Positions 781 to 12,245 are shown, numbered from the stretch's first letter. The stretch: DNA of 28,928 bases from a virus (IMGVR_UViG_3300020175_000031:1-28928), one strand, 5' to 3'. Notes: generated from the sequence alone by a model not told the origin. Numbers and translations: made by a program.

Positions 781-960
781 CTATTAAATTTATGTATTGA
801 ATTTATAATCTACTCTATTAAATTCATGTATTGAATTTGGCGATGCCTTGAGTATTGCTGGATAGTGTATTGAATTGATCTATCCGTATTGAATTGCTTA
901 GTATAAACTTCTTGACCTACTTCTTTTATCTCAAACTTTAGAACTCTCATCTATTAAATT
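781..960. repeat. TATTGAATT / TATTAAATT repeat cluster
   Basis: Seven copies of TATTRAATT start at 782, 795, 816, 829, 868, 887 and 952. Two 24-bp units (781-804 and 815-838) differ by one base and are 34 bases apart. The copy at 868 sits in the loop of a perfect GGATAG/CTATCC stem (860-885). The cluster lies between the end of the operon and its terminator. The same motif recurs before a second terminator at 11727-11780. The function is unknown: it could be an RNA element, a protein-binding array or a replication element. Confidence 0.75.
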
Positions 961-1183
961 TACTTTTCTCTATTGGTAAGTTAAGAACAGAGACAAGATA
1001 CTTTGGAGATACTAATATCTTAACCTCTTGAGTTTCTTTATTCCATGAGTATTTACTTATCATAAAGTTTGGCACCCATATTAAATTATCATCTTCATCA
1101 ACTAAAAGCTTTGCTCTCTTTGTAGCTTTCCTGAGTCGTTTAAATTTAAACACTGCTAACTCTCTTATAAAATAATGTCTCAT
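947..1183 (-). CDS. Hypothetical basic protein, 78 residues
   Basis: This is the last gene of the nine-gene cluster. The N-terminal third is strongly basic (KFKRLRKATKRAK, about residues 13-25), suggesting nucleic-acid contact. A more hydrophobic half follows. I recognise no family. Its ATG overlaps the preceding stop by ATGA, so translation is probably coupled. The stop codon lies inside the first copy of the downstream repeat cluster. Confidence 0.6.
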   Translation of the reverse strand: MRHYFIRELAVFKFKRLRKATKRAKLLVDEDDNLIWVPNFMISKYSWNKETQEVKILVSPKYLVSVLNLPIEKSKFNR

Positions 1184-1371
1184 ACTTTACTTTTTCTGTA
1201 TTCTGATTCTAGTTGTTGCCTATGCAATTCATTCTTTGCTTTAAGAGTTTCGTTCTCTTCTCTTATTGTCTTGAGTAGTTTTGTAAGGTGTGTGATTTGG
1301 TTTTCAAACATATTAACAGTATCTCTAAGATGTCTGATTTCAATTCTGTTTAAATCTTCTAAGTGTGTCAT
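1180..1371 (-). CDS. Small coiled-coil protein, 63 residues
   Basis: Nearly the whole protein is one amphipathic helix with leucines and other hydrophobics at heptad spacing (about residues 4-57, for example LRDTVNMFENQITHLTKLL), so it is probably a dimeric coiled coil. There is no catalytic motif. Both ends overlap neighbours by ATGA. It may be an adaptor or inhibitor that binds a host protein, but this is inference only. Confidence 0.6.
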   Translation of the reverse strand: MTHLEDLNRIEIRHLRDTVNMFENQITHLTKLLKTIREENETLKAKNELHRQQLESEYRKSKV

Positions 1372-1565
1372 ATTTTTATATCTATTCTGTTATTTAATAA
1401 TTCTATTATGGCATAAATTTGCTCTTCTTTTTCTTCTTGCGTTTCAGCAATTTCTTTTACTCTAATCCAAAAATGATTAGATTGCTTTGGCATAAATATA
1501 TCTCTTATTAAATTGCCAAACTTTCGCATTGGGCGTACTGTTTTATATACTCTATTTACTTTCAT
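1368..1565 (-). CDS. Hypothetical protein, 65 residues
   Basis: The N-terminus is basic (MKVNRVYKTVRPMRKFG) and the C-terminal half is an acidic predicted helix (ETQEEKEEQIYAIIELLNN). No known family was recognised. It is coupled by ATGA to the downstream coiled-coil gene, and its start lies inside the last 14 bases of the upstream 39-residue ORF, in another frame. Confidence 0.6.
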   Translation of the reverse strand: MKVNRVYKTVRPMRKFGNLIRDIFMPKQSNHFWIRVKEIAETQEEKEEQIYAIIELLNNRIDIKI

Positions 1566-1671
1566 TTTCTATTAGTTTTTTAATATTATTAATTATGTTA
1601 AAAGTATTCTCCCCTAAAGACATTCCGTCTATAATAAATTCTATTTCTTTTATTAATTCTTGTTTATTCAT
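1552..1671 (-). CDS. Hypothetical protein, 39 residues
   Basis: This short ATG-started ORF fills the space between the zinc-ribbon gene and the 65-residue gene. It reads as a helical acidic protein beginning MNKQELIKEIEFIIDG. It overlaps the next gene by 14 bases and starts 1 base after the upstream stop, consistent with the compact operon. The function is unknown. Support is positional, with reasonable composition. Confidence 0.5.
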   Translation of the reverse strand: MNKQELIKEIEFIIDGMSLGENTFNIINNIKKLIENESK

Positions 1672-1672
1672 A

Positions 1673-1810
1673 TTATTTGTTTTTGAATTGGTTTGCTAGT
1701 GAATAAAATTTATAAGTTTCATAAGGCATCTTATACCCTTTGCAATTATAACAAAATAACTGCTTCGCTTTCTGTTCTATTATTGTCGAACATTTGTTAC
1801 ACTTTCTCAT
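1673..1810 (-). CDS. 45-residue zinc-ribbon protein
   Basis: The protein contains CNKC (residues 4-7) and CYNC (residues 20-23), a CxxC-x12-CxxC pattern expected to bind one zinc ion as a minimal ribbon. The rest is basic and aromatic (KGYKMPYETYKFY). Small phage zinc ribbons often bind nucleic acids or host RNA polymerase; which applies here cannot be told. Its ATG overlaps the upstream stop by ATGA. Confidence 0.6.
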   Translation of the reverse strand: MRKCNKCSTIIEQKAKQLFCYNCKGYKMPYETYKFYSLANQFKNK

Positions 1811-1995
1811 TTGATATTTATTTGATGTTGTGTGCCGTTAAAATTTATACAATATTCTTCATCAAACTCAAAACATTCTTTGGTTTCAGCGTTAAAAAGC
1901 ATTAAGTTTTGTGATATTAATTGTAAAAAATATTGGTGTTGTTTGGGTGTTGAATTATTGTAAAAGTCAATAACTTCTTTGTATTGTGTTTTCAT
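1807..1995 (-). CDS. Hypothetical protein, 62 residues
   Basis: This is a small soluble protein with a helical N-terminal half (MKTQYKEVIDFYNNS...) and an acidic middle (ETKECFEFDEEYC). No family was recognised. It overlaps both neighbours by ATGA. Two cysteines (about residues 41 and 49) are present but form no metal-binding pattern. Confidence 0.55.
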   Translation of the reverse strand: MKTQYKEVIDFYNNSTPKQHQYFLQLISQNLMLFNAETKECFEFDEEYCINFNGTQHQINIK

Positions 1996-2162
1996 ATCTT
2001 ATAGGTTTTGTTTGAATCCATAATGTAGTTAGCATAAACAGTAGCTTGGTTATGCAATTCATCGTTCTTGTCTTCCAAGAACTTCATGTAATGGTTTTGC
2101 CATTGAATTTCGTATTGCATCTCTTTTATTTCTTTTTCTAACTCGATTATTATGTCTTCCAT
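1992..2162 (-). CDS. Hypothetical helical protein, 56 residues
   Basis: The N-terminal half is an acidic amphipathic helix with coiled-coil character (MEDIIIELEKEIKEMQYEIQ). The C-terminal half is more polar. The start shares one base with the upstream stop (TAATG) and the stop is coupled by ATGA to the next gene. Both junctions strongly support it. The function is unknown. Confidence 0.6.
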   Translation of the reverse strand: MEDIIIELEKEIKEMQYEIQWQNHYMKFLEDKNDELHNQATVYANYIMDSNKTYKI

Positions 2163-2314
2163 TATTGTTTAACTTCTTCTTCTATTATTTTGCCTTCTAA
2201 ATCTACAACAGTGTAGCCATGACTTCTTAATAGGTTAATTGATTTTTCTATTTGATTTACTCTTTTTCTGTAATGATCAAATATCTCATTCTCAAATGCG
2301 TTTACTTTACTCAT
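2162..2314 (-). CDS. Hypothetical protein, 50 residues
   Basis: The sequence begins MSKVNAFENEIFDHYRKRVN, with an amphipathic helix through about residue 30. A short beta-like stretch (SHGYTVVDLEGKIIEEE) follows. Small phage proteins of this shape are common, but I cannot name a family. It ends with TAATG overlap onto the next start and begins 2 bases after the upstream stop. Confidence 0.55.
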   Translation of the reverse strand: MSKVNAFENEIFDHYRKRVNQIEKSINLLRSHGYTVVDLEGKIIEEEVKQ

Positions 2315-2316
2315 AA

Positions 2317-2436
2317 TTATTTATTTGTTTTAAATTGTTTTCTTAATAAATCCATTACTAGATTCTGATTAGATTTCTGTATCCAATCGTTGTTAAGCTT
2401 AAAATGTTTTGGGATAATCTTTTTCTTTTGTTTCAT
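2317..2436 (-). CDS. Hypothetical basic protein, 39 residues, first gene of the small-gene operon
   Basis: This very basic ORF (MKQKKKIIPKHFKLNNDW...) directly follows the promoter at 2459-2490, which gives it a leader of about 17 bases. The function is unknown. Its position as first gene and its spacing to the next start (2 bases) support it despite its length. Confidence 0.5.
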   Translation of the reverse strand: MKQKKKIIPKHFKLNNDWIQKSNQNLVMDLLRKQFKTNK

Positions 2437-2451
2437 TGTTTTCTTTATTAG

Positions 2452-2460
2452 TTATACACA
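2452..2460 (+). other. DnaA-box-like 9-mer
   Basis: TTATACACA fits the relaxed DnaA box TTATNCACA and overlaps the -7 element of the small-gene operon promoter. A phage DnaA domain IV-like protein is encoded at 5614-6030, so binding here is conceivable. A single 9-mer in AT-rich DNA can also occur by chance. Confidence 0.25.
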
Positions 2461-2490
2461 AACTTAGTTAATTATTTCCAACTGACCAAA
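2459..2490 (-). promoter_or_regulatory. Promoter of the nine-gene small operon
   Basis: On the minus strand TTTG (2490-2487), a 20-base spacer and TAAGTTTG (2466-2459) match the Bacteroidota -33/-7 promoter exactly. It lies between a terminator (2500-2524) and the first small gene (ATG at 2436). The spacer contains GTCAGTTGGA, also found in the promoter at 2829-2860. Confidence 0.7.
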
Positions 2491-2499
2491 TCTTTTTTT

Positions 2500-2524
2500 A
2501 AAAAAGGGAGGTTTTACTCTCCCT
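2500..2524 (-). terminator. Rho-independent terminator after the 84-residue gene
   Basis: On the minus strand AGGGAG and CTCCCT pair around an 8-base loop and are followed by TTTTTT. It begins 7 bases after the stop of the upstream gene and just before the next promoter, so that gene is an independent transcription unit. Confidence 0.75.
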
Positions 2525-2530
2525 GACTTC

Positions 2531-2785
2531 TTATAGATAGTGTTCTGGGTATCGATAATGATAAGTATTGTATAAATACAAAGCTTCTTTTATCGATTCA
2601 ACTGGGGTTTGTGATAAAATGTCACCACCAAAATAAAGAACTGAACTTTGATTTTGTCTGGTGCTAGTTATAACGTACTTTCCTGAATCAAAATCCCAAA
2701 CTCCTTTGTTTAAATCTATTTTAAAATGACCTTGAGATTCTAGTTGTTTTTTAGAGTTAACTTTCTCTAGTTTTAATTTTTCCAT
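2531..2785 (-). CDS. Hypothetical protein, 84 residues, single-gene transcript
   Basis: I do not recognise the family. It has a lysine-rich N-terminus (MEKLKLEKVNSKKQ), then a mixed region with several aromatic residues, ending in YNTYHYRYPEHYL. I chose the ATG at 2785 instead of a TTG at 2818. The TTG would lie almost on the predicted transcription start of the promoter at 2829-2860, while the ATG leaves a leader of about 37 bases. A terminator follows directly, so the gene appears to be expressed alone. Confidence 0.6.
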   Translation of the reverse strand: MEKLKLEKVNSKKQLESQGHFKIDLNKGVWDFDSGKYVITSTRQNQSSVLYFGGDILSQTPVESIKEALYLYNTYHYRYPEHYL

Positions 2786-2828
2786 GTTTTCAATTTTATG
2801 GGTTAAACAATATTTCAATGAACTGTGT

Positions 2829-2860
2829 TCAATATAGTAATTAATTCTCCAACTGACAAA
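2829..2860 (-). promoter_or_regulatory. Promoter of the 84-residue gene
   Basis: On the minus strand TTTG (2860-2857), a 20-base spacer and TATATTGA (2836-2829, a weaker -7 box). The spacer (TCAGTTGGAGAATTAATTAC) is nearly the same as in the promoter at 2459-2490, so the two promoters look duplicated or co-regulated. Confidence 0.55.
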
Positions 2861-2892
2861 TAAATGTAGAAATATAACAAATTAAATAGTTT

Positions 2893-2910
2893 TTGTTACA
2901 AATGTAACAA
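2893..2910. promoter_or_regulatory. 18-bp palindrome, candidate operator
   Basis: TTGTTACA-AA-TGTAACAA is a perfect inverted repeat with 8-bp arms, located in the gap between the nuclease-like gene and the 84-residue gene. Its minus-strand centre reads TACATTTG, a -7-like box. A similar TACATTTGTAA core occurs before the gene at 13717. It has no T-tract, so it is not a terminator. Confidence 0.5.
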
Positions 2911-2914
2911 TTTA

Positions 2915-3412
2915 CTAAAAAACTTTGTCTATCTCTAATAAATCTGACTTTTCTATTACGAAACTTTCAACTCTTGTCATTCTTATATTAGATTTATTGA
3001 ATACCATTTCGTTAGTAGCAAACCCTTCAAATCTATATCTAGGGTATATGCAACTAAACAGAGCGAAGAGATCGCATTCACTTTTAGCATAGCTAGGTAT
3101 CATTAATGGGTGTTTATGATTTCTATTAACTTTTACGTCTATTGTCTTACTTTTATAAACTGCATCATAATAATCTGTGCCATTAGATTTAGATGTATTG
3201 TGTATCTTAAAATCTGGATATAGATTCAATTCTCTACAAAAGATAAACTCAGCACCAAAACCAACTATATTTAAATCTACTCCACTTTTTTCATTTACAG
3301 TACCTTTGCCATCCCAACCTGTATTAACCTTGTTGTTCTGTCTTTGACTTGCAACTAATTCAACAATTTGTTGTTCTGTTTTGTCTAGTATGTAAACATT
3401 TCCTATCTTCAT
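2915..3412 (-). CDS. PD-(D/E)XK nuclease-like protein, 165 residues
   Basis: A conserved-looking core has an early Glu in GFGAEFIFCREL (about residues 52-63), then NGTDYYDAVY (about 77-86), then TIDVKVN (about 90-96). The order Glu ... Asp ... D-x-K is that of PD-(D/E)XK restriction-endonuclease-like folds, with the Lys in DVK as the expected catalytic lysine. It follows the terminase large subunit with a 3-base gap, so it may act in packaging, DNA processing or host DNA degradation. The fold assignment is by motif only, and no exact family is recognised. Confidence 0.55.
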   Translation of the reverse strand: MKIGNVYILDKTEQQIVELVASQRQNNKVNTGWDGKGTVNEKSGVDLNIVGFGAEFIFCRELNLYPDFKIHNTSKSNGTDYYDAVYKSKTIDVKVNRNHKHPLMIPSYAKSECDLFALFSCIYPRYRFEGFATNEMVFNKSNIRMTRVESFVIEKSDLLEIDKVF

Positions 3413-3415
3413 TTT

Positions 3416-4630
3416 TTATTTAACAAAGTAACTGCCATGTGGAACAGATCGAGTTAATACATATTGAATTAAATATCTCGATGCGTCAATACCATGATTG
3501 AATTTATCAATAGGAATTGCACCGTTTAATTTCCAAGTATAGTTATTAAATTCACGAATTAGATTCACAGATTTATCTTCTATTATTATCTGATAATCTT
3601 GCATCAAAGAGATTCCTGCCAAGATACTACCTTTCTTTTTTATGGTGGGTATTACATTCAGTCCTTTAGATTTTATGGCACTCAAAAGACGAGGTTCAGA
3701 ATTGTCCATTACAATTAAATTGCCACCTGCGTGTCTCCTATTCAATTCATATATTTGACTTGTACTTAATCCTGCCTTATAGTAATGTTCTTTTAACCAT
3801 ATAATCTTTCTTTCTTTATCTATTGCACCTTCTACTAAAACTGAGGGATCAACTGAAAACCCTATGTCCATACCAAATATTGAATCTATTTCATTATTAA
3901 ATTTACCTATGTTCCAGTGAGTAAAGATAACGCCTTCAGCAGATTTCAACCAACCTCCCATAATCTGATGCTTATATTTCTCTGGTCGTCTAACCTTCAT
4001 TACATCTATTTGCTTAACAAACGATTTAGACAAGTGATCTAAGTTGTCAAGATATGTAGTATGTATGTAAGTAATGTTTTCTTTTGTGCCATTAAATCCA
4101 TCTGGAACTCCTCTGTTTTGAAAGAACCTTTGGTATATCCAATTCTCTTTTGTAGTAGGGTTTAGAATTAATATACATCTATTCTTTACAAGCTTTGATC
4201 TAATACTAAAATCAATTTTATCAAAACTCTCTTCGTCTGTTAACTCTTCTGCTTCATCTAATACAAAAGAACTTACACCCTGTATAGATTTAAGCTTTGC
4301 AGTTTGATCTCCACTTGAAGTTCTAATACCACTGAAGTATATTGAACTGCCTGTTAAATTGTTTATGATCTCTGTCTTATTTACAGTGAACTGATCGAGT
4401 ATTCCCATGAGTTCTAACTTCTCTATAAACTCAGGAATAATAGACATACCTGCTGAAGTCATTGTATAACGAGTAAATAGTATCCTGTGTCCTTTTTCGT
4501 ATGTTAAAAGCACTAAGAATGTGTTTGTAGCAAATGATTTTCCAGAACCTCTACCCCCAGTTATTACAAAGTAACGACTTTTAGAGTTAAACAAAGCTTG
4601 ATACTTTTTATTAAGATTAAGCTTCTTCAT
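3416..4630 (-). CDS. terL: Terminase large subunit (packaging ATPase/nuclease)
   Basis: This is the motor that pumps DNA into the prohead and cuts it. Visible features are a Walker A GGRGSGKS (residues 25-32), a Walker B-like FVLDEAEE near residue 120, an ATPase coupling motif LILNPT near 154, and a C-terminal RNase H-like nuclease with GMDIGFSVDPS near 243 and IVMDNSEP near 296. The 404-residue length and overall pattern fit the PBSX-type (Terminase_3) group. It starts 1 base after the stop of the upstream 106-residue gene. Confidence 0.93.
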   Translation of the reverse strand: MKKLNLNKKYQALFNSKSRYFVITGGRGSGKSFATNTFLVLLTYEKGHRILFTRYTMTSAGMSIIPEFIEKLELMGILDQFTVNKTEIINNLTGSSIYFSGIRTSSGDQTAKLKSIQGVSSFVLDEAEELTDEESFDKIDFSIRSKLVKNRCILILNPTTKENWIYQRFFQNRGVPDGFNGTKENITYIHTTYLDNLDHLSKSFVKQIDVMKVRRPEKYKHQIMGGWLKSAEGVIFTHWNIGKFNNEIDSIFGMDIGFSVDPSVLVEGAIDKERKIIWLKEHYYKAGLSTSQIYELNRRHAGGNLIVMDNSEPRLLSAIKSKGLNVIPTIKKKGSILAGISLMQDYQIIIEDKSVNLIREFNNYTWKLNGAIPIDKFNHGIDASRYLIQYVLTRSVPHGSYFVK

Positions 4631-4631
4631 T

Positions 4632-4952
4632 TTAATCTATATTGTTTTTTGATTTATAATCAGTTATTCTTTTTAATATATACTTATCTCTTTGCATACC
4701 TTTTAACAATAATCTTTGTTCCCAATATTCTTCATCTCTTATGTTATTCCAGTCGTTAACAGTTAAGTTGTAGCTTTCGGAAAACTTAGACATTTTCCAA
4801 TATGTAGGACATTTTTTTAATATCCATAAATACAAACCTCTGTATGTTATATTGTCAATAGATTTATATTCATATAAAAGCTGTGAATAAAACTTTTTAT
4901 GCACATCTTCTAAACTAACTATTTCAAATACTCTCTTCTTTTTTTTCATCAT
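4632..4952 (-). CDS. Hypothetical protein between TerS and TerL, 106 residues
   Basis: This is a basic, aromatic-rich soluble protein (MMKKKKRVFEIV..., RGLYLWILKKCPTYWKMSKF) with no recognised domain. It overlaps the end of the upstream small-terminase candidate by 29 bases and is followed directly by terL, so it is translated within the packaging operon. A packaging accessory role is possible. Two adjacent ATGs are available (4952 and 4949). Confidence 0.65.
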   Translation of the reverse strand: MMKKKKRVFEIVSLEDVHKKFYSQLLYEYKSIDNITYRGLYLWILKKCPTYWKMSKFSESYNLTVNDWNNIRDEEYWEQRLLLKGMQRDKYILKRITDYKSKNNID

Positions 4953-5304
4953 CCTTAATCTCTTCAGATTCTATTTCTATTGTTTTTTCTTTGTCTCCAA
5001 AGTTAATAATAGGGATGTTGACTTCTGTTTTCACATTAAGTTCTTTTAACTCTTTTGGTTTACCATACTTGTATTCCCAAAGTAATCTCATGTGAGGAAA
5101 ACTCTCTTTGCTTTGTTTAGCAAGTTCAAGCCAAGCTTTCTCTTCACTACCAAATACTTTTTTCATTGCACCCAAAGCATAGTTACCTAGCTTTTTCTCT
5201 CTTGCCTTTGGTGGTCGACCTTGTCCTCTGTAAACACCTTTTAAAGCACCGTTGTTTGCTCTTCCGTCTTTTTTCTTTTTGTTTTCATTATCTACTCCTT
5301 CCAT
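4924..5304 (-). CDS. terS: Probable terminase small subunit
   Basis: The protein is 126 residues. It has a basic Gly/Arg-rich N-terminal segment (RANNGALKGVYRGQGRPPK), then a helical region (GNYALGAMKKVFGSEEKAWLELAKQS), the segment LLWEYKYGKPKE and a strongly acidic C-terminus. This arrangement is seen in small terminase-like proteins of Bacteroidota phages, which recognise phage DNA and bring it to TerL. Its position two genes upstream of terL supports this. It overlaps both neighbours. Small terminases diverge strongly, so the call is moderate. Confidence 0.6.
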   Translation of the reverse strand: MEGVDNENKKKKDGRANNGALKGVYRGQGRPPKAREKKLGNYALGAMKKVFGSEEKAWLELAKQSKESFPHMRLLWEYKYGKPKELKELNVKTEVNIPIINFGDKEKTIEIESEEIKDDEKKEESI

Positions 5305-5630
5305 AAACCTTTATTAATTAGTTGGCATATAATAGAGTAATTACCTAAGTCCTGATATGTATCTAACAAAGTTTCGTTATTTCCTTTACGATTCTTAATT
5401 ATTAGATTTTTCCATCTACTTATTTTATCATTCATTCTAAACCATAAACCATGTAATGCAAAATCTTTGCCCTCTCTAGTTTCTAAGTTTGCACCAGTGC
5501 TTATATTACTAATGCCATAATCTAATTGTTTTTTAGCAAAGAGTTCAAATTGCTCTTCAACTATATCCTCATAACTCTTATATAAGTTAGGACATTCTTT
5601 TAATAATAACTTTCTATACTTGTTCTGCAT
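5292..5630 (-). CDS. DUF1599 / nucleotide modification associated domain 1 protein
   Basis: The 112-residue protein carries the pattern KKQLDYGISNIST (about residues 34-46), FRMNDKISRWKNL (about 64-76) and ETLLDTYQDLGNYSIICQLI (about 86-105). This resembles the DUF1599 (Nmad1) family, helical proteins with a MazG-like look, tied by comparative genomics to nucleotide or base modification. No dedicated modification enzyme is visible nearby, so its role here is open. It overlaps the TerS candidate by 13 bases and the DnaA-like gene by 17 bases. Confidence 0.7.
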   Translation of the reverse strand: MQNKYRKLLLKECPNLYKSYEDIVEEQFELFAKKQLDYGISNISTGANLETREGKDFALHGLWFRMNDKISRWKNLIIKNRKGNNETLLDTYQDLGNYSIICQLINKGLWKE

Positions 5631-6030
5631 ATTCTAATTGATCTGGCATATTACTTATAACCATTGTTAGTTCGTCAATGTCTTTTGTGCCTAATGTATT
5701 AAGTTTACTTTTAATATATTCTTTTTTAGTTTTGTCATCCATTTCGTCAATCTCTACAATAAGTTGCTTTAACCAAATTGATAAAATTCTATTATACTTT
5801 CTATGTGTATCAAAAGTATTTATTGAATATATAAGTGTAGCATGATTTATTTTCCAACCGTTAGTATTATAAAACTTAACGATTTCATGTAAAGGCATCT
5901 TTTTGTAATTAAACAATACATGATTTAATAATGATCTAACTTCAACATATTCTCTTTTCCTTGTTGATTTAAATACATCAAGTCCAGATAGTGAACTTAT
6001 TTTGTTTGATATTTGCTTTTGTGTTATCAT
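5614..6030 (-). CDS. DnaA domain IV-like DNA-binding protein
   Basis: Residues about 23-72 (STRKREYVEVRSLLNHVLF..., KINHATLIYSINTF) match the C-terminal DNA-binding domain of DnaA, which recognises DnaA boxes with a helix-turn-helix and a basic loop. HATLIYS stands for the usual HATVIHA signature. There is no AAA+ domain, so at 138 residues it cannot act as a full initiator. It may bind origin or promoter DNA, or compete with host DnaA. The start at 6030 is coupled to the upstream stop by ATGA. Confidence 0.75.
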   Translation of the reverse strand: MITQKQISNKISSLSGLDVFKSTRKREYVEVRSLLNHVLFNYKKMPLHEIVKFYNTNGWKINHATLIYSINTFDTHRKYNRILSIWLKQLIVEIDEMDDKTKKEYIKSKLNTLGTKDIDELTMVISNMPDQLEYAEQV

Positions 6031-6218
6031 GGTAAATAATTTTGTTGAATCTTATAATCCTCTAAAGCATGAAGCATTGCACTGCAACACTCATAATGCT
6101 CTTCGTTTTCATATTGTTCAATTAATAATGGTATTTCTTTTTCTGTTATTACTTTTTTCTTTAGACAAAGTAGAGTGTCTTGATAACAATCTAAATAATC
6201 TAAATACTGTTCTTCCAT
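6027..6218 (-). CDS. Hypothetical acidic protein, 63 residues
   Basis: This is a small acidic protein with four cysteines (CYQD..., LCLKKK, ECCSAM) but no CxxC metal site, and helical character throughout. It starts immediately after the stop of the exonuclease gene and couples to the DnaA-like gene by ATGA. No family is recognised. A reverse-strand ORF over the same bases is a shadow. Confidence 0.6.
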   Translation of the reverse strand: MEEQYLDYLDCYQDTLLCLKKKVITEKEIPLLIEQYENEEHYECCSAMLHALEDYKIQQNYLP

Positions 6219-6992
6219 TTACAAAGTGTCTTCTACTAAGTAGTTTTCTAAATCAAATTCATTCTTAATATAGTTTTCATATACTTTAATTGCATACTCA
6301 ACTTTTTGCTCACCACTAAAATAGAAATTTTCGCTGACATTAAAAATGCCTATTTCATTTGTTGGTGATTTGTCGATTACAATATACTTAAAATCTTTAT
6401 AACTTTTGCCAAACAGATTACAATAAATGTAACACTGACTATCATAATTATATTTATTAGCACTATATCTAAATGCCGAACAAATCTGAGTTGTCTTTAA
6501 ATCTATTAAGTGTTCACCTAAAACATCTGCCTTACCTCTAAAAGGATAACCCATTAAATTGTTTACCATAGGCACTTCAAACTTACTGTTCTCTATAAGT
6601 TCACTTGCAGGTTTACAATTATAGAATCTATCTCTTAATCTTAATGCCTTGTCTCTATCTTTAACAGTAAACACATCCCACCTTTCAGCTTTGGCTAATT
6701 TATATTCTTTGTTTGCCTTTGTCTTAACATCTAAGAATAGGCACTCATTAAATTTATCCTCTTCTAATATACTTGCATGGAATAAATAACCTTGAGCCAA
6801 TGCATCAGATTCAGTAGGCAGGTTTATTTGATTTAAATATTCTAATGGTGATTTAAGCAGTTGACTTATTGCACTACTTGATAAACAAGCTTTTGCTAAG
6901 TAGCCATAATAGAAACTATCTTCTATTGCTTTTTGTGTGAGCTCATGTCTATCATGCATCTCATTGTCTAGTGTGATAATTGGTTCTTTCAT
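6219..6992 (-). CDS. RecE/DUF3799-like exonuclease (PD-(D/E)XK)
   Basis: This is probably the 5'-3' exonuclease partner of the phage annealing protein. Motifs seen are LSSSAISQLLKSPLEY near the N-terminus, GYLFHASILE (GxxxH, typical of the family), RGKADVLG and LIDLKTT (the PD-(D/E)XK Asp and D-x-K residues), then YNYDSQCYIYC (QxxxY). The size (257 residues) fits the RecE C-terminal nuclease or DUF3799 type. I chose ATG 6992, 1 base after the lipoprotein stop, because the longer frame starts with TTG and runs inside that gene. Confidence 0.8.
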   Translation of the reverse strand: MKEPIITLDNEMHDRHELTQKAIEDSFYYGYLAKACLSSSAISQLLKSPLEYLNQINLPTESDALAQGYLFHASILEEDKFNECLFLDVKTKANKEYKLAKAERWDVFTVKDRDKALRLRDRFYNCKPASELIENSKFEVPMVNNLMGYPFRGKADVLGEHLIDLKTTQICSAFRYSANKYNYDSQCYIYCNLFGKSYKDFKYIVIDKSPTNEIGIFNVSENFYFSGEQKVEYAIKVYENYIKNEFDLENYLVEDTL

Positions 6993-6993
6993 A

Positions 6994-7236
6994 TTAATTA
7001 CAGTTTGAGTTATATTGATATGATAAACTATATTCCCAGCATCCACCAACTATGTAGTAACTATAAACTTCGTTGTTATAACCGTCTCTACATAGGTAAA
7101 CATACCTAACGGTTCTATCTCCGTAGTCAACATGATAAGGTTCGTTAAAAGGTGCCGAAGGATAATTACCAAGATCGCAGTTGTCTTCACAACTCAATAA
7201 TGTAAATAAGATTAATGTGTAAAATATTGTTTTCAT
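6994..7236 (-). CDS. Small phage-encoded lipoprotein
   Basis: Residues 1-16 form a signal peptide ending in the lipobox LLSC with the lipidated Cys at 16 (MKTIFYTLILFTLLSC). The mature protein is about 65 residues, acidic and Tyr-rich, with four more cysteines that could form disulphides after export. In this host group it should sit in the inner or outer membrane. Phage lipoproteins made early often block superinfection, which is a possible role here but not shown. It has its own good promoter at 7257-7286. Confidence 0.75.
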   Translation of the reverse strand: MKTIFYTLILFTLLSCEDNCDLGNYPSAPFNEPYHVDYGDRTVRYVYLCRDGYNNEVYSYYIVGGCWEYSLSYQYNSNCN

Positions 7237-7256
7237 ATCTCTTTGTTATTCACGCA

Positions 7257-7286
7257 CAAAGTTAATAAAACAATTTAATTACACAA
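7257..7286 (-). promoter_or_regulatory. Promoter of the lipoprotein gene
   Basis: On the minus strand TTG (7286-7284), a 19-base spacer and TAACTTTG (7264-7257) match the Bacteroidota consensus. It lies 20 bases upstream of the lipoprotein ATG and would also drive the exonuclease, DnaA-like and packaging genes. Confidence 0.7.
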
Positions 7287-7290
7287 GCTA

Positions 7291-7437
7291 TTACATAAAA
7301 TTCTTTTTCCAAACGTCTAATCCAACTGCATACCTCTGTTTAGTGTCTGGGTATTCTAAGATCATTTTAGCATTATTCATGAATCTTGCCATGAAATTAG
7401 CTTTCTCTTCGTACTTCTTTGGTTTTAGAAATGGCAT
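7291..7437 (-). CDS. Conserved small phage protein, 48 residues
   Basis: Starting at ATG 7437, the protein has MPFLKPKKYEEKANFMARFM, then EYPDTKQRYAVGLDVW. The MP-x-PKK-x-(E/D)K...FM and YPD-x-KQR-x-AV pattern recurs in small proteins of many phages, but I know of no assigned function. It begins 4 bases after the upstream stop. A gap with the lipoprotein promoter follows. The recognisable motif makes it a gene despite its length. Confidence 0.7.
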   Translation of the reverse strand: MPFLKPKKYEEKANFMARFMNNAKMILEYPDTKQRYAVGLDVWKKNFM

Positions 7438-7441
7438 ATTA

Positions 7442-7843
7442 TTATTTTTTATATTCTATGTAAACTCTCTCTAGTTTCTTATGTAAATTGTTCTTAAAAC
7501 AAGAAGAACAACTTGTTAAATTCATTTGCTGATGAAAAACCCTGTTGTATATTACAAGTAATTCTTGTTGAGTTTCTGAAGTTACAGTTGACTTTGCTTC
7601 AGTATAATATTTATCTAAAATATTAAATTCATCTTCCGTTAAACACTCTGGTTTATAGTAAGGGAATAAGTAATTTAAGGTGGCTTTTCGCTCCTCACAC
7701 CCACAATCTTCACCAAGTGCCCATTTAGCTATCTTTGCTATGCCAGTAGCTTCTAACACTTGTTCGACTGTATCGCCTAATCCCTTAGCTTTTATACTTT
7801 TTGTACTCTTCTTTGCTTTCTTGTCTGATTTTTTCTTTTGCAT
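7442..7843 (-). CDS. Conserved Bacteroidota-phage protein with Cys pairs, 133 residues
   Basis: A Lys/Ser-rich N-terminus is followed by KGLGDTVEQVLEATGI (about residues 20-35), WALGEDCGCEERK, and a C-terminal CSSCF. The GLGDTVE...TGI...AG/GEDCGC.ERK pattern is one I associate with a conserved hypothetical protein of flavobacterial phages. The cysteine pairs CxC and CxxC may bind metal together. The first 59 bases overlap the end of the sigma-like gene, a large overlap for this window, so a later non-ATG start is possible. Confidence 0.65.
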   Translation of the reverse strand: MQKKKSDKKAKKSTKSIKAKGLGDTVEQVLEATGIAKIAKWALGEDCGCEERKATLNYLFPYYKPECLTEDEFNILDKYYTEAKSTVTSETQQELLVIYNRVFHQQMNLTSCSSCFKNNLHKKLERVYIEYKK

Positions 7844-8351
7844 TTGTTAATGTATTAAATATTGAACTTAAACTTATTTTAGTTTCTTTGCTTATATCTC
7901 TCATACTCATATTTGTACTTAGATATAATTTAGTTAGCTTCTTATCGTACCAATACCAGTCATCTATAATTTCATCAATCTTATCGTATAAAGCTTCTAA
8001 ATCTACTTTCTTATTATAATTCTTATTGATCTCGTCTTCATTGTAAGCAATATTATTTATTATATAATTATACTTCTCTTGATCAATATCAGTAAACACT
8101 TTAATGTTTTTTCTTTTATAACTAGAGCATTTACTATAATATAAATTTCTTAATGTGATGTATATATAAAATGTGTTGATCTCTTTTTCATTATACATTA
8201 TACGATTTACATCTTTGGTGTAATCATACATTCTAAGATACATCTCTTGAACTAACTCATTTGCATCATTATTGTTTAGTTTAAAGCTTTTTGCCATCTT
8301 AATCCATTCATTATGCTTATTAGCTAATATGTCTAATATATTAGAGTTCAT
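7785..8351 (-). CDS. Sigma-70-like transcription factor
   Basis: This is a 188-residue ECF-sized protein. The N-terminal part (WIKMAKSFKLNNNDANELVQEMYLRMYDY) resembles sigma region 2 and its helix that contacts the RNA polymerase coiled coil and the -10 DNA. The C-terminal part (KLTKLYLSTNMSMRDISKETKISLSSIFNTLTNAKEKI) resembles the region 4 helix-turn-helix. It could redirect host polymerase to phage late promoters. I chose ATG 8351 because the longer reading begins with TTG; the ATG leaves an 11-base overlap with the upstream gene. Confidence 0.65.
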   Translation of the reverse strand: MNSNILDILANKHNEWIKMAKSFKLNNNDANELVQEMYLRMYDYTKDVNRIMYNEKEINTFYIYITLRNLYYSKCSSYKRKNIKVFTDIDQEKYNYIINNIAYNEDEINKNYNKKVDLEALYDKIDEIIDDWYWYDKKLTKLYLSTNMSMRDISKETKISLSSIFNTLTNAKEKIRQESKEEYKKYKS

Positions 8352-8631
8352 CTTGTAAAATAATGTCTCTAAGTTTATCAAAACAATTAATTACATAATA
8401 ATTGCCTTTCCATTCAGATTGGAACTTAACTTCGTCTGGTGTTAATTTTTGTTGTGCTTTCGGTTTATCTCCGTCTTTTATTTCTACTAAGTAGTTTAGA
8501 TTATTATAACCTACAATAATATCTGGAGCACCTTTACCTAATTGGTGAGTGTGGAGGACAGAGCATCCTATCCCCCTTAGCTTGGAAACTATTTCTTTTT
8601 GGTTGGCATCTACTCTTGCTCTAATTCGCAT
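8341..8631 (-). CDS. VRR-NUC-like nuclease / resolvase-like protein
   Basis: This is a 96-residue single-domain nuclease with GAPDIIVGYNNLNYLVEIKDG (about residues 34-54), the PD...E-x-K catalytic pattern, followed by QKLTPDEVKFQSEWKGNYYVI, typical of VRR-NUC-like phage proteins. Such enzymes cleave branched DNA or Holliday junctions and would resolve replication intermediates before packaging. The start lies 22 bases inside the primase-helicase gene end. Confidence 0.75.
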   Translation of the reverse strand: MRIRARVDANQKEIVSKLRGIGCSVLHTHQLGKGAPDIIVGYNNLNYLVEIKDGDKPKAQQKLTPDEVKFQSEWKGNYYVINCFDKLRDIILQDEL

Positions 8632-10337
8632 CTAATACTATCTAATCTATCAAAGGGTGTTTGATTATTAAAATAGTATCTGTTAGATTTTCTTTGGTAA
8701 GTTATGCCTTCAACATCTTGTGGATAACCTACTAATTTCTGTTTCTTTATTTTTTGACTGCCAAATATAACTTCAGTATTACTAAAATCTAATGCTCTAT
8801 GTGGTCGCCACACAAACAATAAATTGTCGCATTTATCAGCAAATGTTCCACCACCTTTGACTCTATTAACGTCTGGTTTATTATACCTTCCGTTGTCATC
8901 TTTTTGTGGTGTAACTTGGTGTGCAACTAAATGAACAGAGATTTTATTCTCTACTGCAAACCTTTTTAACTCACTCATAAATCTACTTATGTACAAATCC
9001 TCTCTTTCTCCTCTGTGCATCCTGTGTTGTACTGTATTGTATGGATCAATAATTAAAGAACGAATACCTTTTGTCTTAACTAAAAACTTAGCTCTTTCAA
9101 AGATGTCCTCTAATTTATAACTTTTTTTTGGATATATTATAAAAAAGTGTTTTTTCATAAACTCCATACCTTGCTTAAACTCAGCTTCACTCATATAATT
9201 ATTCTGATAAAAAGGATCAGAACTTTTGCCTATGTAACATTCTATTAAGTCATGGAAAAAATCATTTATAGGCATATTCTCTGGACTAAACACCGCAAAC
9301 TTCCATCCTTCATGAAATGCCTTTAAAACTGATAGTTGATTTAAGAACATACTTTTACCTTCATTTTGATAACCTGTCCAAATATTAACCTCTCCGTTTC
9401 TCCATGTCCACGCTCTATCTATACAATCTATATGAGTTGTTGAACCTCTTTCTTGACCGTTCTTATAACCGTCTAGCATACTATCGTAAATATCACTAAT
9501 ATCAAATATGCCTTCAACCTTAGGCACTCTAGCATTTTTAAATCTAAACCTTAAAGATTCTACTCCTTCCTCAATTAATAATTCATTAGCATCTTTATAT
9601 GGGTTTGTGTCTATTAATCTTATTTTTTCTGCACCAATTCTTCTTATAAGTTCCTCTTCTAAATACCTACCATTTTCATCATTATCAGTACACAAATAAA
9701 CTGCTTCTGCATTATCAAATACTTCATAACAATTTGTAATACATTCTAATTTCTTGTCTAAGTTTTTATCTTTTACATTTGGTGCACCCATGTTTACAGA
9801 AGTGTGCCAAGTAAAACCTGCAACTTCCCAACTTAAAGAATCAAATTCACCTTCACATAATATTACAAAATCTTGATTTACAACACGATCATAATTAAAT
9901 ATAATTGGCTCACCATTTTTTGATTGTGTAAATGTTTTGTTTTGTATTCCTCTAGTTTTATAGTTTACTAATTCATTGTTTTTTAAATATGGGAATACAA
10001 CACTTTTACCATCTTTTGTTGTTGTAATCTTATTGTTTTCTATAACCTCATTAGTTATACCTCTACTGTTAAGAAACTCGATTGCACTTGAATTTATTTT
10101 CTGTAAGTTGTTTGTGGTAGGTTTAGTGTATATTTTTTCTTTAATCATATTATTATTAGGGTTTACTGAACCGTTCCAACTACAATGGTGGCAATGATAT
10201 AAGCCATCATCTAAATTTATAGAAAGCGAAGTATCACTTTTATTTTTTCTAGTATGGCTACATTTTGGGCACTTTACTTTCTGTTGAGAGTATTTGCCTT
10301 TAGGTACGATTCCAATTTTTACAAAGTTTTCTTGCAT
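8610..10337 (-). CDS. Primase-helicase (gp4/Twinkle-like)
   Basis: The replicative enzyme is 575 residues. It has an N-terminal zinc ribbon with C23, C26, C49 and C52 (CPKC...CHHC). A TOPRIM domain follows with LCEGEFDSLS near residue 157 and CTDNDENG near 216. A C-terminal RecA/DnaB-type ATPase carries Walker A GYQNEGKSM near 321 and LIIDPYNTV near 430. It would unwind DNA at the fork and probably lay down primers. It is preceded by the three 16-bp repeats at 10362-10416, so its expression or the nearby origin may be controlled there. Confidence 0.88.
   Translation of the reverse strand: MQENFVKIGIVPKGKYSQQKVKCPKCSHTRKNKSDTSLSINLDDGLYHCHHCSWNGSVNPNNNMIKEKIYTKPTTNNLQKINSSAIEFLNSRGITNEVIENNKITTTKDGKSVVFPYLKNNELVNYKTRGIQNKTFTQSKNGEPIIFNYDRVVNQDFVILCEGEFDSLSWEVAGFTWHTSVNMGAPNVKDKNLDKKLECITNCYEVFDNAEAVYLCTDNDENGRYLEEELIRRIGAEKIRLIDTNPYKDANELLIEEGVESLRFRFKNARVPKVEGIFDISDIYDSMLDGYKNGQERGSTTHIDCIDRAWTWRNGEVNIWTGYQNEGKSMFLNQLSVLKAFHEGWKFAVFSPENMPINDFFHDLIECYIGKSSDPFYQNNYMSEAEFKQGMEFMKKHFFIIYPKKSYKLEDIFERAKFLVKTKGIRSLIIDPYNTVQHRMHRGEREDLYISRFMSELKRFAVENKISVHLVAHQVTPQKDDNGRYNKPDVNRVKGGGTFADKCDNLLFVWRPHRALDFSNTEVIFGSQKIKKQKLVGYPQDVEGITYQRKSNRYYFNNQTPFDRLDSIRCELEQE
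8719..8727 (-). other. Perfect DnaA-box sequence inside the primase-helicase gene
   Basis: The minus strand reads TTATCCACA, the consensus DnaA box. It lies in coding sequence (VGYPQDVE region), so chance plus codon constraint is a sufficient explanation. It is noted because the phage encodes a DnaA domain IV-like protein. Confidence 0.2.
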
Positions 10338-10361
10338 AGTTCAATTTTAAATGTATATTTT

Positions 10362-10416
10362 ATAATACACTATGTATATAATACACTATGTATTAGTTAT
10401 ATAATACACTATGTAT
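10362..10416. repeat. Three exact 16-bp iteron-like repeats
   Basis: ATAATACACTATGTAT occurs exactly at 10362-10377, 10378-10393 and 10401-10416 (periods 16 and 23). Each copy contains a small dyad ATACA-CTA-TGTAT. The array fills the gap between the winged-helix gene and the primase-helicase gene. It is a likely binding array, either a replication origin (iterons) or an operator for the winged-helix protein. Confidence 0.8.
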
Positions 10417-10721
10417 TACATACAACTGACATTCTTGGCACTTGGAGAGATGTAAATCTTACGCTCTTTGCCGTCATTTCCTAAGCTTTTTGTAACTCTT
10501 TTGATGTATTCTTTGTTTTCTAAGTTTTTTAATATTCTGTATAGTGTTCTATCGTTTAAGTTTAATGCCATGCACAAATTTTCATTTGAAGCATAACAAT
10601 AACCTTTTTTAATTGACAACGAATCTATATAGGACAATACAGTAGCTTCTGATATTGATAAATTTGTATTCATAAATGCTAAATTAATGTTAACGTATTT
10701 CTTGTTTTTTCTTTGTGTCAT
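10416..10721 (-). CDS. Winged helix-turn-helix DNA-binding protein
   Basis: The 101-residue protein is built as a helix-turn-helix with a wing. ISEATVLSYIDSLS (about residues 23-36) is followed by YASNENLCMALNLNDRTLYRILKNLENKEYIKRV (about 43-76), where LNDRTLYRILKNL is the recognition helix. It resembles the HTH_36-type domain of replication and plasmid initiators. It lies directly upstream of the iteron-like repeats and the primase-helicase, and its stop codon overlaps the last repeat, so it is the obvious candidate to bind them. Confidence 0.75.
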   Translation of the reverse strand: MTQRKNKKYVNINLAFMNTNLSISEATVLSYIDSLSIKKGYCYASNENLCMALNLNDRTLYRILKNLENKEYIKRVTKSLGNDGKERKIYISPSAKNVSCM

Positions 10722-10736
10722 AATGTAAGATAATAA

Positions 10737-10764
10737 TCCCCCAAAACAATTAAGTAGTGGGGGA
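10737..10764 (-). terminator. Hairpin with weak U-tract, possible terminator or attenuator
   Basis: On the minus strand TCCCCCA pairs with TGGGGGA around a 14-base AT-rich loop, followed by TTATTATC. The stem is strong but the T-tract is interrupted. It separates the SSB-like gene from the winged-helix gene and may only attenuate transcription. Confidence 0.45.
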
Positions 10765-10772
10765 ATGATTAA

Positions 10773-11033
10773 TTAAAATGGTAAATCCTGTGTCGGTAGT
10801 GGTGCTTTTGGTACTTCTTGTACCTTAGTTTCTGGAACATATTCATCAATCCACACCGAATGTGTTTTACCATACTGATCAACTTGCTTTTTGTTTCCAA
10901 TAGACAGCTTTAAAAAACGCTTACCATTGTATTCAATCCAAGAATCTCTTGTTTTCTCTTCACTAATTGTAAAGTTAATTAAGTCGTAGCTTCCAACTTT
11001 TTTTCCGCTACCTACATACTTTTTGTCATTCAT
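10773..11033 (-). CDS. SSB-tailed protein, probable ssDNA-binding accessory
   Basis: The 86-residue protein ends in PLPTQDLPF, like the C-terminal tip DDIPF/DDLPF that bacterial SSB uses to recruit partners. The body (YVGSGKKVGSYDLINFTIS..., KRFLKLSIGNKKQVDQYGKTHSVWIDEYVP) looks like a small beta barrel. I associate this pattern with proteins encoded beside ERF recombinases in Bacteroidota phages. It starts 14 bases after the ERF gene. An ssDNA-binding role is inferred from the tail and context. Confidence 0.6.
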   Translation of the reverse strand: MNDKKYVGSGKKVGSYDLINFTISEEKTRDSWIEYNGKRFLKLSIGNKKQVDQYGKTHSVWIDEYVPETKVQEVPKAPLPTQDLPF

Positions 11034-11047
11034 AATTTTAATTTAAT

Positions 11048-11611
11048 TTAGGTTAATAATAATTTTTCTACTTTCTTACTTACTTTATATTTTTTTCTAA
11101 TATCGGTGATAGTAAAACCTTTTTTTGTAATGGCATCTTTTGCCTTATCAAACTTGTCTCCTTTTTCTTCTAGCCAATCTTTATTTGGCTCTAAGACAGC
11201 CGTAGAGACGTTTTTAGATACCTTAGAGTGATTATTAGTGGCATCTGCATCTTTTGTATCGTCTATTAAAAATAAACCGTTTAAAGCATACTTTCTAGCA
11301 TAACTACTTGATGCTCCATAACACTGAGCTACATCCATTCCTTTACGATTTAAGTTAATTCCTGCTTGAGCTCTTACAGTGATCTTGTCAACACCATCAG
11401 TGATCTCTGCAACTGCATTAACAAATAATGGCTCTGGAGCAATAGAATCAGAAATAGTAAGTAATAATTCTTCTTTGGCAAGTAATGGTTTTACTGCTTC
11501 TAAAATGTCTTCACAACTTCTGTAATTGTAATTACCAAAGTTATTCCTTTGATTTTTAGGTGCTTTCAAACTCCCTTGAATACGCACCAACTTCTTTGTT
11601 AGATTTTTCAT
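11048..11611 (-). CDS. erf: ERF-family single-strand annealing protein
   Basis: The protein (187 residues) has the ERF signatures near the N-terminus (QGSLKAPKNQRNNFGNYNYRSCEDILEAVKPLL) and YGASSSYARKYALNGLFLIDDTKDAD at about residues 98-123. It should anneal complementary strands made by the phage exonuclease (6219-6992) during recombination or genome circularisation. The C-terminal 60 residues are a linker and a small helical domain. The promoter at 11616-11646 ends 5 bases before the ATG, so the mRNA may be nearly leaderless. Confidence 0.88.
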   Translation of the reverse strand: MKNLTKKLVRIQGSLKAPKNQRNNFGNYNYRSCEDILEAVKPLLAKEELLLTISDSIAPEPLFVNAVAEITDGVDKITVRAQAGINLNRKGMDVAQCYGASSSYARKYALNGLFLIDDTKDADATNNHSKVSKNVSTAVLEPNKDWLEEKGDKFDKAKDAITKKGFTITDIRKKYKVSKKVEKLLLT

Positions 11612-11615
11612 GTAA

Positions 11616-11646
11616 CAAACCTAAACATAAAATATGTCATGTGCAA
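11616..11646 (-). promoter_or_regulatory. Promoter of the recombination-replication operon
   Basis: On the minus strand TTG (11646-11644), a 20-base spacer and TAGGTTTG (11623-11616) match the Bacteroidota consensus. It lies just after the terminator at 11657-11689. Transcription should start at or within a few bases of the erf ATG at 11611. Confidence 0.7.
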
Positions 11647-11656
11647 GTCAAAAGAC

Positions 11657-11689
11657 AAAAAAAAGGAGCAACATCTTGTCACCCCTTTT
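11657..11689 (-). terminator. Rho-independent terminator after the lysis cassette
   Basis: On the minus strand GGGGTGACA and TGTTGCTCC form a 9-bp stem with three wobble pairs and an AGA loop, followed by eight T. It closes the transcript that carries the holin and endolysin genes, downstream of the TATTRAATT repeats. Confidence 0.8.
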
Positions 11690-11722
11690 CATTGAAAACA
11701 AAGAAAATCAACAGAATATCGC

Positions 11723-11781
11723 ACCCTATTGAATTGACAAAGATATAAAAATACCTATTAAATTCATAGGGTATTGAATTT
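11723..11781. repeat. Second TATTRAATT cluster, before the lysis terminator
   Basis: Three copies start at 11727, 11756 and 11772. ACCCTATTGAATT (11723-11735) and AATTCATAGGGT (11762-11773 region) form an imperfect inverted repeat. A smaller CCTAT/ATAGG stem encloses the middle copy. The string CTATTAAATTCAT followed by GTATTGAATTT also occurs at 815-838, apart from a 3-base insertion. Confidence 0.7.
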
Positions 11782-11786
11782 ATTTA

Positions 11787-12245
11787 TTATCCTTTAAATA
11801 TACTAGTAGATTTTTCTGCGGTACGACCACCAAAATAAGCTAACACAACTGCCATCATTACCTTTTCAAATGTATCATTCCATGTAGCTCCAATGTGAAA
11901 TGGAACACTCTCTATACTGTCTAATATGCCAGCTAAACTAAATACAACTATACACCATACTAAAACTAATGGACGTACATTCTTACTAAGCCATGAATCG
12001 CTGATTGAATCAGCTTTCCACCTACTTGTAATAGATTCTATTTCTTTATTTTGCTGATCATAAATCATTTGCTGTAGCTTTATCTTGTCTTCATTAGGTA
12101 TTTTAGATTTACCTATTTCAGCTAAAGCTTCTTGTGGAGAACTAACACCACTTAATACTTTTCCTAGTGTTGGATTTATCATTGATGCTGCACCAAATAA
12201 TAATTTACCAACCGTAGTTTCTTTAAATTTCTTTTTATCAGACAT
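11787..12245 (-). CDS. Holin (3TM / GTA-type)
   Basis: The 152-residue protein has the family signature ITSRWKADSISDSWLSKNVRPL (about residues 72-93). A strong membrane helix follows (VLVWCIVVFSLAGIL, about 94-108), then a second near residues 128-140 (VMMAVVLAYFGG). A weakly hydrophobic N-terminal segment (VGKLLFGAASMI) may be the third. It would permeabilise the inner membrane so that the endolysin reaches the wall. It overlaps the endolysin gene by 8 bases and is the last gene before the terminator. Confidence 0.8.
   Translation of the reverse strand: MSDKKKFKETTVGKLLFGAASMINPTLGKVLSGVSSPQEALAEIGKSKIPNEDKIKLQQMIYDQQNKEIESITSRWKADSISDSWLSKNVRPLVLVWCIVVFSLAGILDSIESVPFHIGATWNDTFEKVMMAVVLAYFGGRTAEKSTSIFKG

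Follow-up and report, generated by a model that had tools for sequence, protein, structure and literature searches.

The window analyzed here, a 28,928-base virus record from IMG/VR (IMGVR_UViG_3300020175_000031:1-28928) with 31% G+C, carries essentially all of its genes on the − strand and contains two clusters of a short repeat, TATTRAATT (hereafter M1), whose transcript form is therefore AATTYAATA. One cluster, array A (11727-11780), precedes the gene for an Erf-type single-strand annealing protein, and the other, array B (782-960), lies beyond the terminase genes. Over the whole window, TATTRAATT is present 20 times on the + strand and 0 times on the − strand. Open reading frames (ORFs) were called mechanically, and terminators and promoters by pattern.

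Array A comprises three sites (11727, 11756, and 11772), sense to the − strand transcript and directly past the stop codon of the holin gene (11787-12245, − strand; phrog_3427, 4.7e-17), the last gene of the late block. Beyond the array, on the same strand, lie an intrinsic terminator (11660-11690) that is conserved in relatives, a host-type (Bacteroidota) promoter of the form TTG-N20-TAGGTTTG (11616-11646), which, as read from the sequence, would serve the recombination/replication operon, and, 4 nucleotides (nt) past the end of this promoter, the start codon of the Erf gene (11048-11611, − strand; PF04404, 1.7e-33), the first gene past the array. A weak CCTAT/ATAGG hairpin, with a U-rich stretch after it, has the middle copy in its loop. 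A reading of array A as a Bacteroidota promoter, based on TAnnTTTG boxes between its copies, was rejected, given that array B has no such boxes.

Array B carries seven copies, TATTRAATT on the + strand at 782, 795, 816, 829, 868, 887, and 952, and is also sense to the − strand transcript. It is located downstream of the large terminase (TerL) gene (3416-4630, − strand), as in the M1 relatives examined, and directly beyond it lies an intrinsic terminator with an 11-pair stem and a T tail (744-768, − strand). Four copies (816, 829, 868, and 887) fall within an ORF of 46 amino acids (aa) (MRVLKFEIKEVGQEVYTKQFNTDRSIQYTIQQYSRHRQIQYMNLIE; 810-950, − strand) present in 9 of the genomes compared, and a fifth (952-960) in the 3′ end of a 78-aa ORF (947-1183, − strand), such that only the copies at 782 and 795 are non-coding. 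The four copies within the 46-aa ORF occupy differing reading frames, and conservation therefore acts on the nucleotides. The array spacing, 19-39-13-21-13, is kept in relatives such as L003.

A preliminary description of the window had placed both clusters between the last gene of an operon and its terminator. Terminators do lie beyond both clusters (768-744 and 11690-11660), but five of the seven array B copies are coding. All ten copies it listed were recovered at their positions, and the paired form it saw in both clusters is present, though with a 13-nt spacing in array B (CTATTAAATTNATGTATTGAATTT) and a 16-nt spacing in array A (CTATTAAATTCATAGGGTATTGAATTT). The density also exceeds a dinucleotide-shuffled background, the comparison it had suggested: in 1000 such shuffles of the window, TATTRAATT occurred on average 2.7 times on the + strand (maximum 8) and 2.2 times on the − strand, and clusters of 7 in 180 nt or 3 in 54 nt were seen in 0 of 1000, with at most 2 copies reached in either span.

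Conservation, polarity and placement in related phages

Searches of IMG/VR with TerL and Erf identified relatives carrying the same arrays in the same places. The array-bearing genomes are all uncultured metagenomic contigs, and their start points vary. In 1.7 Mb of related loci (redundant and overlapping), M1 occurs 1058 times in sense and 77 times in antisense orientation. Whole or near-whole array-bearing relatives, most of ~27-38 kb, usually have 2-6 clusters per genome, with one in G006 and G010. An array is made of 2-9 asymmetric sites of ~14 nt, and more than half of the copies are followed by a short stretch of G or C; the logo from 80 de-duplicated arrays, which leaves out a few that are 8-nt simple repeats, reads TRTRAATTYAATA plus G or C, with a spacing of 11-31 nt that peaks at 17.

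When viral_contigs were scanned for three tandem copies, most loci among the matches listed encode this TerL. In the scan of cellular genomes, the 19 Bacteroidota-type matches inspected among those listed are simple tandem repeats or short-period runs, and a host-wide motif of the Chi or KOPS type was rejected on this basis. A perfect tandem octamer, AATTCAAT, found in 9-12 units in Mucilaginibacter contigs of several species (L277, L281, L305, and L307), likewise represents unrelated simple repeats. Arrays were not found in the cultured relatives Nonlabens phage P12024L, Tenacibaculum phage JQ, and Riemerella phage PJL1. From the promoter form and the relatives, including P12024L, whose TerL is 53% identical, we infer a host group of Bacteroidota type. 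At three loci (L015 4357-4998, L025 10242-11158, and L049 13082-13746), an array is interrupted by an entire gene cassette that has a promoter of its own and, on either side, copies of the same motif pair (AATTCAATA-TATG-AATTTAATA in L025), as though arrays served as recombination points for acquiring genes.

We analyzed array placement in 67 distinct arrays with enough flanking sequence for terminators and in 63 for promoters. Of the 67, 36 had an intrinsic terminator that lay at the array end or no more than 170 nt past it (1-2 in shuffled sequence), and 4 had one before the array; no terminator ended inside an array, and in 14 the terminator hairpin overlapped the last copy. A sigmaA-like promoter was found within 350 nt downstream in 35 of the 63, at a median distance of 167 nt, compared with 4 upstream and 4 after shuffling. 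Conservation before terminators thus extends to the relatives, and placement and conservation together support the preliminary view that these transcript-sense repeats are a functional family and differ from common promoters or operators. The strict polarity, the overlap with coding sequence, and the host-type promoter past most arrays go beyond that description, as do the intragenic excess and the exchange of motifs between clades reported below. In L104, L209, G022, and G026, a host-type promoter is immediately preceded by TTAACATT repeated at ~11-nt intervals (TTAACATTGGCTTAACATTGGGTAACATT), an arrangement that resembles an upstream activating element.

Fourteen loci form a subclass in which the array keeps the genome orientation but runs antisense within the 5′ region of a minus-strand gene, just ahead of divergent promoters. 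At 10-11 of these loci, no + strand terminator was found in the 1 kb before or the 450 nt after the array, and the array could therefore be a boundary by itself. Judged by eye from its sequence, the minus-strand gene reads like a nucleotide pyrophosphohydrolase. In L104 (10491-10904), L209 (10337-10750), L234 (4554-4967), and others, its N-terminal linker consists of antisense motif copies, which yield repeated PIKFT/GIEL-like peptides.

Strictly sense copies directly upstream of terminators are also what an RNA element would display, AAUUYAAUA copies in the nascent 3′ untranslated region being bound by a phage RNA-binding protein that would control termination, through readthrough or enhancement, or protect the 3′ end. 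The T/C tolerance of the motif and its irregular 11-31 nt spacing would suit single-stranded RNA, and the hairpins overlapping a copy in 14 of 67 arrays include CCCCC-TTTGTGAATTCAATA-GGGGG-TTTTTTT in G013 and GGGGG..GTTTAATATTAT-CCCCC in G018. However, neighboring G/C runs are complementary in 60 pairs and non-complementary in 51, so that no general hairpin rule holds, and a hairpin or inverted-repeat reading (AAATTCA-N5-TGAATTT, or CCC..GGG around the motif) was rejected because adjacent runs are not preferentially complementary. Moreover, the ~14 arrays antisense in the minus-strand gene mostly lack a clear terminator, no RNA-binding candidate emerged, and no Rfam covariance model gave a match. 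We regard an RNA element as a live though less probable rival to the reading favored below.

Single copies also occur inside genes. Upon shuffling of synonymous codons within each gene (100 shuffles), 61 sense M1 copies were observed vs. 36.5 ± 5.0 expected, a number reached in 0 of 100 shuffles, whereas antisense copies were depleted (6 vs. 13.7 ± 3.3, with 1 of 100 shuffles as low). The same test applied to a sister-clade motif, TTAAACGCA, gave 25 copies vs. 1.4 expected (0 of 100 shuffles), and neither motif was enriched in the genomes of the other clade. Since genomes within a clade are related, the counts for both motifs are not independent. The results show selection at synonymous positions. 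An AT-rich genome of 31% G+C, in which the protein sequence alone predicts some intragenic copies, could suggest an artifact of chance or codon usage, but the shuffle, synonymous-shuffle, and conservation tests refute this for the clusters and leave such an artifact with next to no probability.

Motif exchange between clades and candidate readers

Genomes that share the structural and terminase genes but have no M1 arrays contain sense-only arrays of other motifs. M2 (YYTTAAACGCAGTRGGG) is found in G009, G019, G022, G025, and G026, where the 8-mer TAAACGCA occurs 10-18 times forward vs. 0-1 times in reverse per genome, and M3 (TGTTTAAYATTAT with a run of G or C) is found past TerL in G018, with a similar form in few copies in G024. 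No array was recognized in P12024L, G021, G027, and G028. Between sister clades, the position (past TerL and at gene ends) and the polarity are kept while the sequence has changed, as expected of a co-evolving reader.

In the TerL tree, one to two label changes suffice for the M1 phages. The trees that part M1 from M2-M4 completely are those of the portal, its neighbor, and TerL (area under the curve 1.00), together with those of SSB and a 63-aa protein; the small-terminase-like (TerS-like) protein (0.98) and the sigma factor do so almost completely, and the capsid, holin, and DnaA-C-like trees mix motif types. The DnaA-C-like protein (5614-6030) was rejected as a reader, given that it was not detected in the array-bearing G001, G002, G004, and G016 and that its tree mixes motif types. 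A 44-aa protein, c118, tracks array presence (25 of 25 vs. 0 of 4) but was set aside because its tree mixes them too.

Such separation by terminase and portal trees would fit a role in DNA packaging, with the arrays as small-terminase binding sites that set the packaging direction. In the M1 phages examined, an array lies beyond the terminase genes in the direction of transcription, and array orientation tracks the genome even within the minus-strand gene. The candidate reader for this role would be the TerS-like protein (4924-5304, − strand), so named by position, which has a basic N terminus with RGQGRPPK; it gave no family match, and its structure model was too low in confidence to use. Yet the sigma factor, SSB, and the 63-aa protein separate the motif types as well, several operon-end arrays separated by as much as ~11 kb, together with scattered single sites, would be unusual for packaging, and the bias toward positions before terminators and promoters is left unexplained. 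Packaging sites are an unlikely explanation, though still a live rival.

The window further encodes an ECF-like phage sigma factor (7785-8381, − strand; phrog_1740, 5.5e-5), a candidate array reader whose predicted fold gave ECF sigma factors as its best matches, none below E 1e-3. The arrays could be sites for this factor, acting as promoter elements or as −10-like pause sites that it recognizes on the non-template strand, a mode of reading that would require the sense polarity observed, and all array-bearing near-complete genomes encode the factor. Nearly all phages of the group do so, with or without arrays, including the array-less P12024L, G021, G027, and G028, and tandem promoters directly ahead of terminators make little sense. 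We consider sigma sites improbable.

Between the gene for an HTH_36 initiator-like protein and the primase-helicase gene (10361-10412, − strand), the window carries three AT-rich palindromic repeats, ATACATAGTGTATTAT, that, from their sequence, likely represent a replication origin; relatives have different palindromic repeats at this place, such as ACTTAGTA in four copies in G005. The arrays themselves might serve as replication iterons for the HTH_36 protein, since M1 presence tracks the HTH_36/primase-helicase module and direct repeats in the same orientation are iteron-like. This match is phylogenetically confounded, because the motif could, on the TerL tree, have arisen just once. In addition, the HTH_36 gene has these adjoining palindromic repeats of its own, phages with a different replication module have analogous arrays, and genomes usually harbor 2-6 arrays rather than one unique array at the initiator gene, all of which makes iterons very improbable. 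Among the possibilities raised in the preliminary description, an RNA element and a protein-binding array are still candidates, while replication sites are weakened by the repeats of the HTH_36 gene.

In 28 records, including several incomplete ones, no member of the integrase (PF00589), HTH_3 (PF01381), or resolvase (PF00239) families was found, the L5 repressor family not being part of the search. This suggests that the array-bearing phages are lytic and argues against a classical repressor. Elsewhere in the window, a 2241-aa tail-fiber-like gene contains repeated TAACTGGT units (LTGNVTGNVTGN) at ~18842-18958, a stretch that matches tail fiber or structural genes of a Roseobacter phage and a Synechococcus phage with 91-97% identity over 37-54 nt.

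Polar operon boundaries as the favored interpretation

Based on these results, we propose, with a probability of about 40%, that the arrays are polar operon-boundary elements at which a putative phage factor halts or gates RNA polymerase between transcription units. The site arrays, oriented with the main transcription, are positioned past the last gene of one unit and ahead of the terminator and host-type promoter of the next. A putative phage-encoded, sequence-specific factor would bind them, most likely on DNA or on the passing polymerase, and once bound would halt or pause polymerase arriving from upstream. Upstream transcripts would in this way be kept from entering the next unit or from occluding its promoter, the intrinsic terminator, where present, completing the stop, and single sense copies inside genes may be weaker sites of the same kind. 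The sites with their polarity, placement, and conservation, the selection at synonymous positions, and the motif exchange are results, whereas the factor, the stop, and its benefit are proposed on their basis.

Several observations weigh against this proposal. Because nearly all genes run one way, array polarity relative to transcription is inseparable from polarity relative to the genome, and the genome orientation kept in the ~14 arrays antisense to a minus-strand gene fits packaging or replication polarity equally. The tree separation narrows the search for a reader and singles out no binding factor. G006, G010, G013, G015, and G016 are without array A though the boundary keeps its terminator, and array placement may partly follow the available non-coding space.

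Among known systems, the stoperators of cluster A mycobacteriophages (L5, Bxb1, and TipsytheTRex) are 13-14-bp asymmetric sites, numbering 20-30 per genome, mostly intergenic and oriented with transcription, whose motif varies by clade and which are read by the immunity repressor in temperate phages or their derivatives (PMC9283540, PMC6550527). M1 arrays resemble them in site size, number, polarity, and clade-specific motif, and by analogy may work like stoperators. In contrast, M1 sites are clustered at operon ends beside terminators, and no integrase, resolvase, or HTH_3 family member turned up in the 28 records searched; with both lysogeny context and arrangement differing, we do not file the arrays as stoperators. 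T1-like phages (TLS, T1, and Rtp) carry many copies of 21-nt intergenic direct repeats that are oriented with transcription and whose function is unknown, those of TLS being located ~76 nt upstream of start codons (PMC11447400). These repeats are the closest unexplained case in lytic phages, sharing high copy number and sense orientation with M1, whereas M1 forms tandem arrays at 3′ ends ahead of terminators. The repeated elements of SP-beta (SPBRE) are also short phage-genome repeats, read by the phage DNA-binding protein MrpR/YopR, but this reader is the repressor of a temperate phage, and to our knowledge no array or terminator association has been reported for them. The nut sites of lambda act in the sense RNA ahead of terminators and have phage-specific readers; their boxA/boxB structure is not seen in M1, for which the hairpin test on neighboring copies failed.

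That related phage groups place other repeats at equivalent positions suggests that the arrays are a previously undescribed, clade-specific transcription stop or boundary signal. More tentatively, they may belong to a system for delimiting transcription in lytic phages of the Bacteroidota type, where a putative reader would stop or gate polymerase at operon ends and clades would have changed the recognition sequence but retained the sites. If so, sequence-specific polar transcription boundaries would not be bound to prophage repressors and would form part of the lytic program in a large group of uncultured phages, and boundary specificity would be evolvable. Because the sister clades, with different motifs at the same sites, are natural experiments, the arrays would also bear on what the sense-oriented repeats between genes do in T1, TLS, and other lytic phages.

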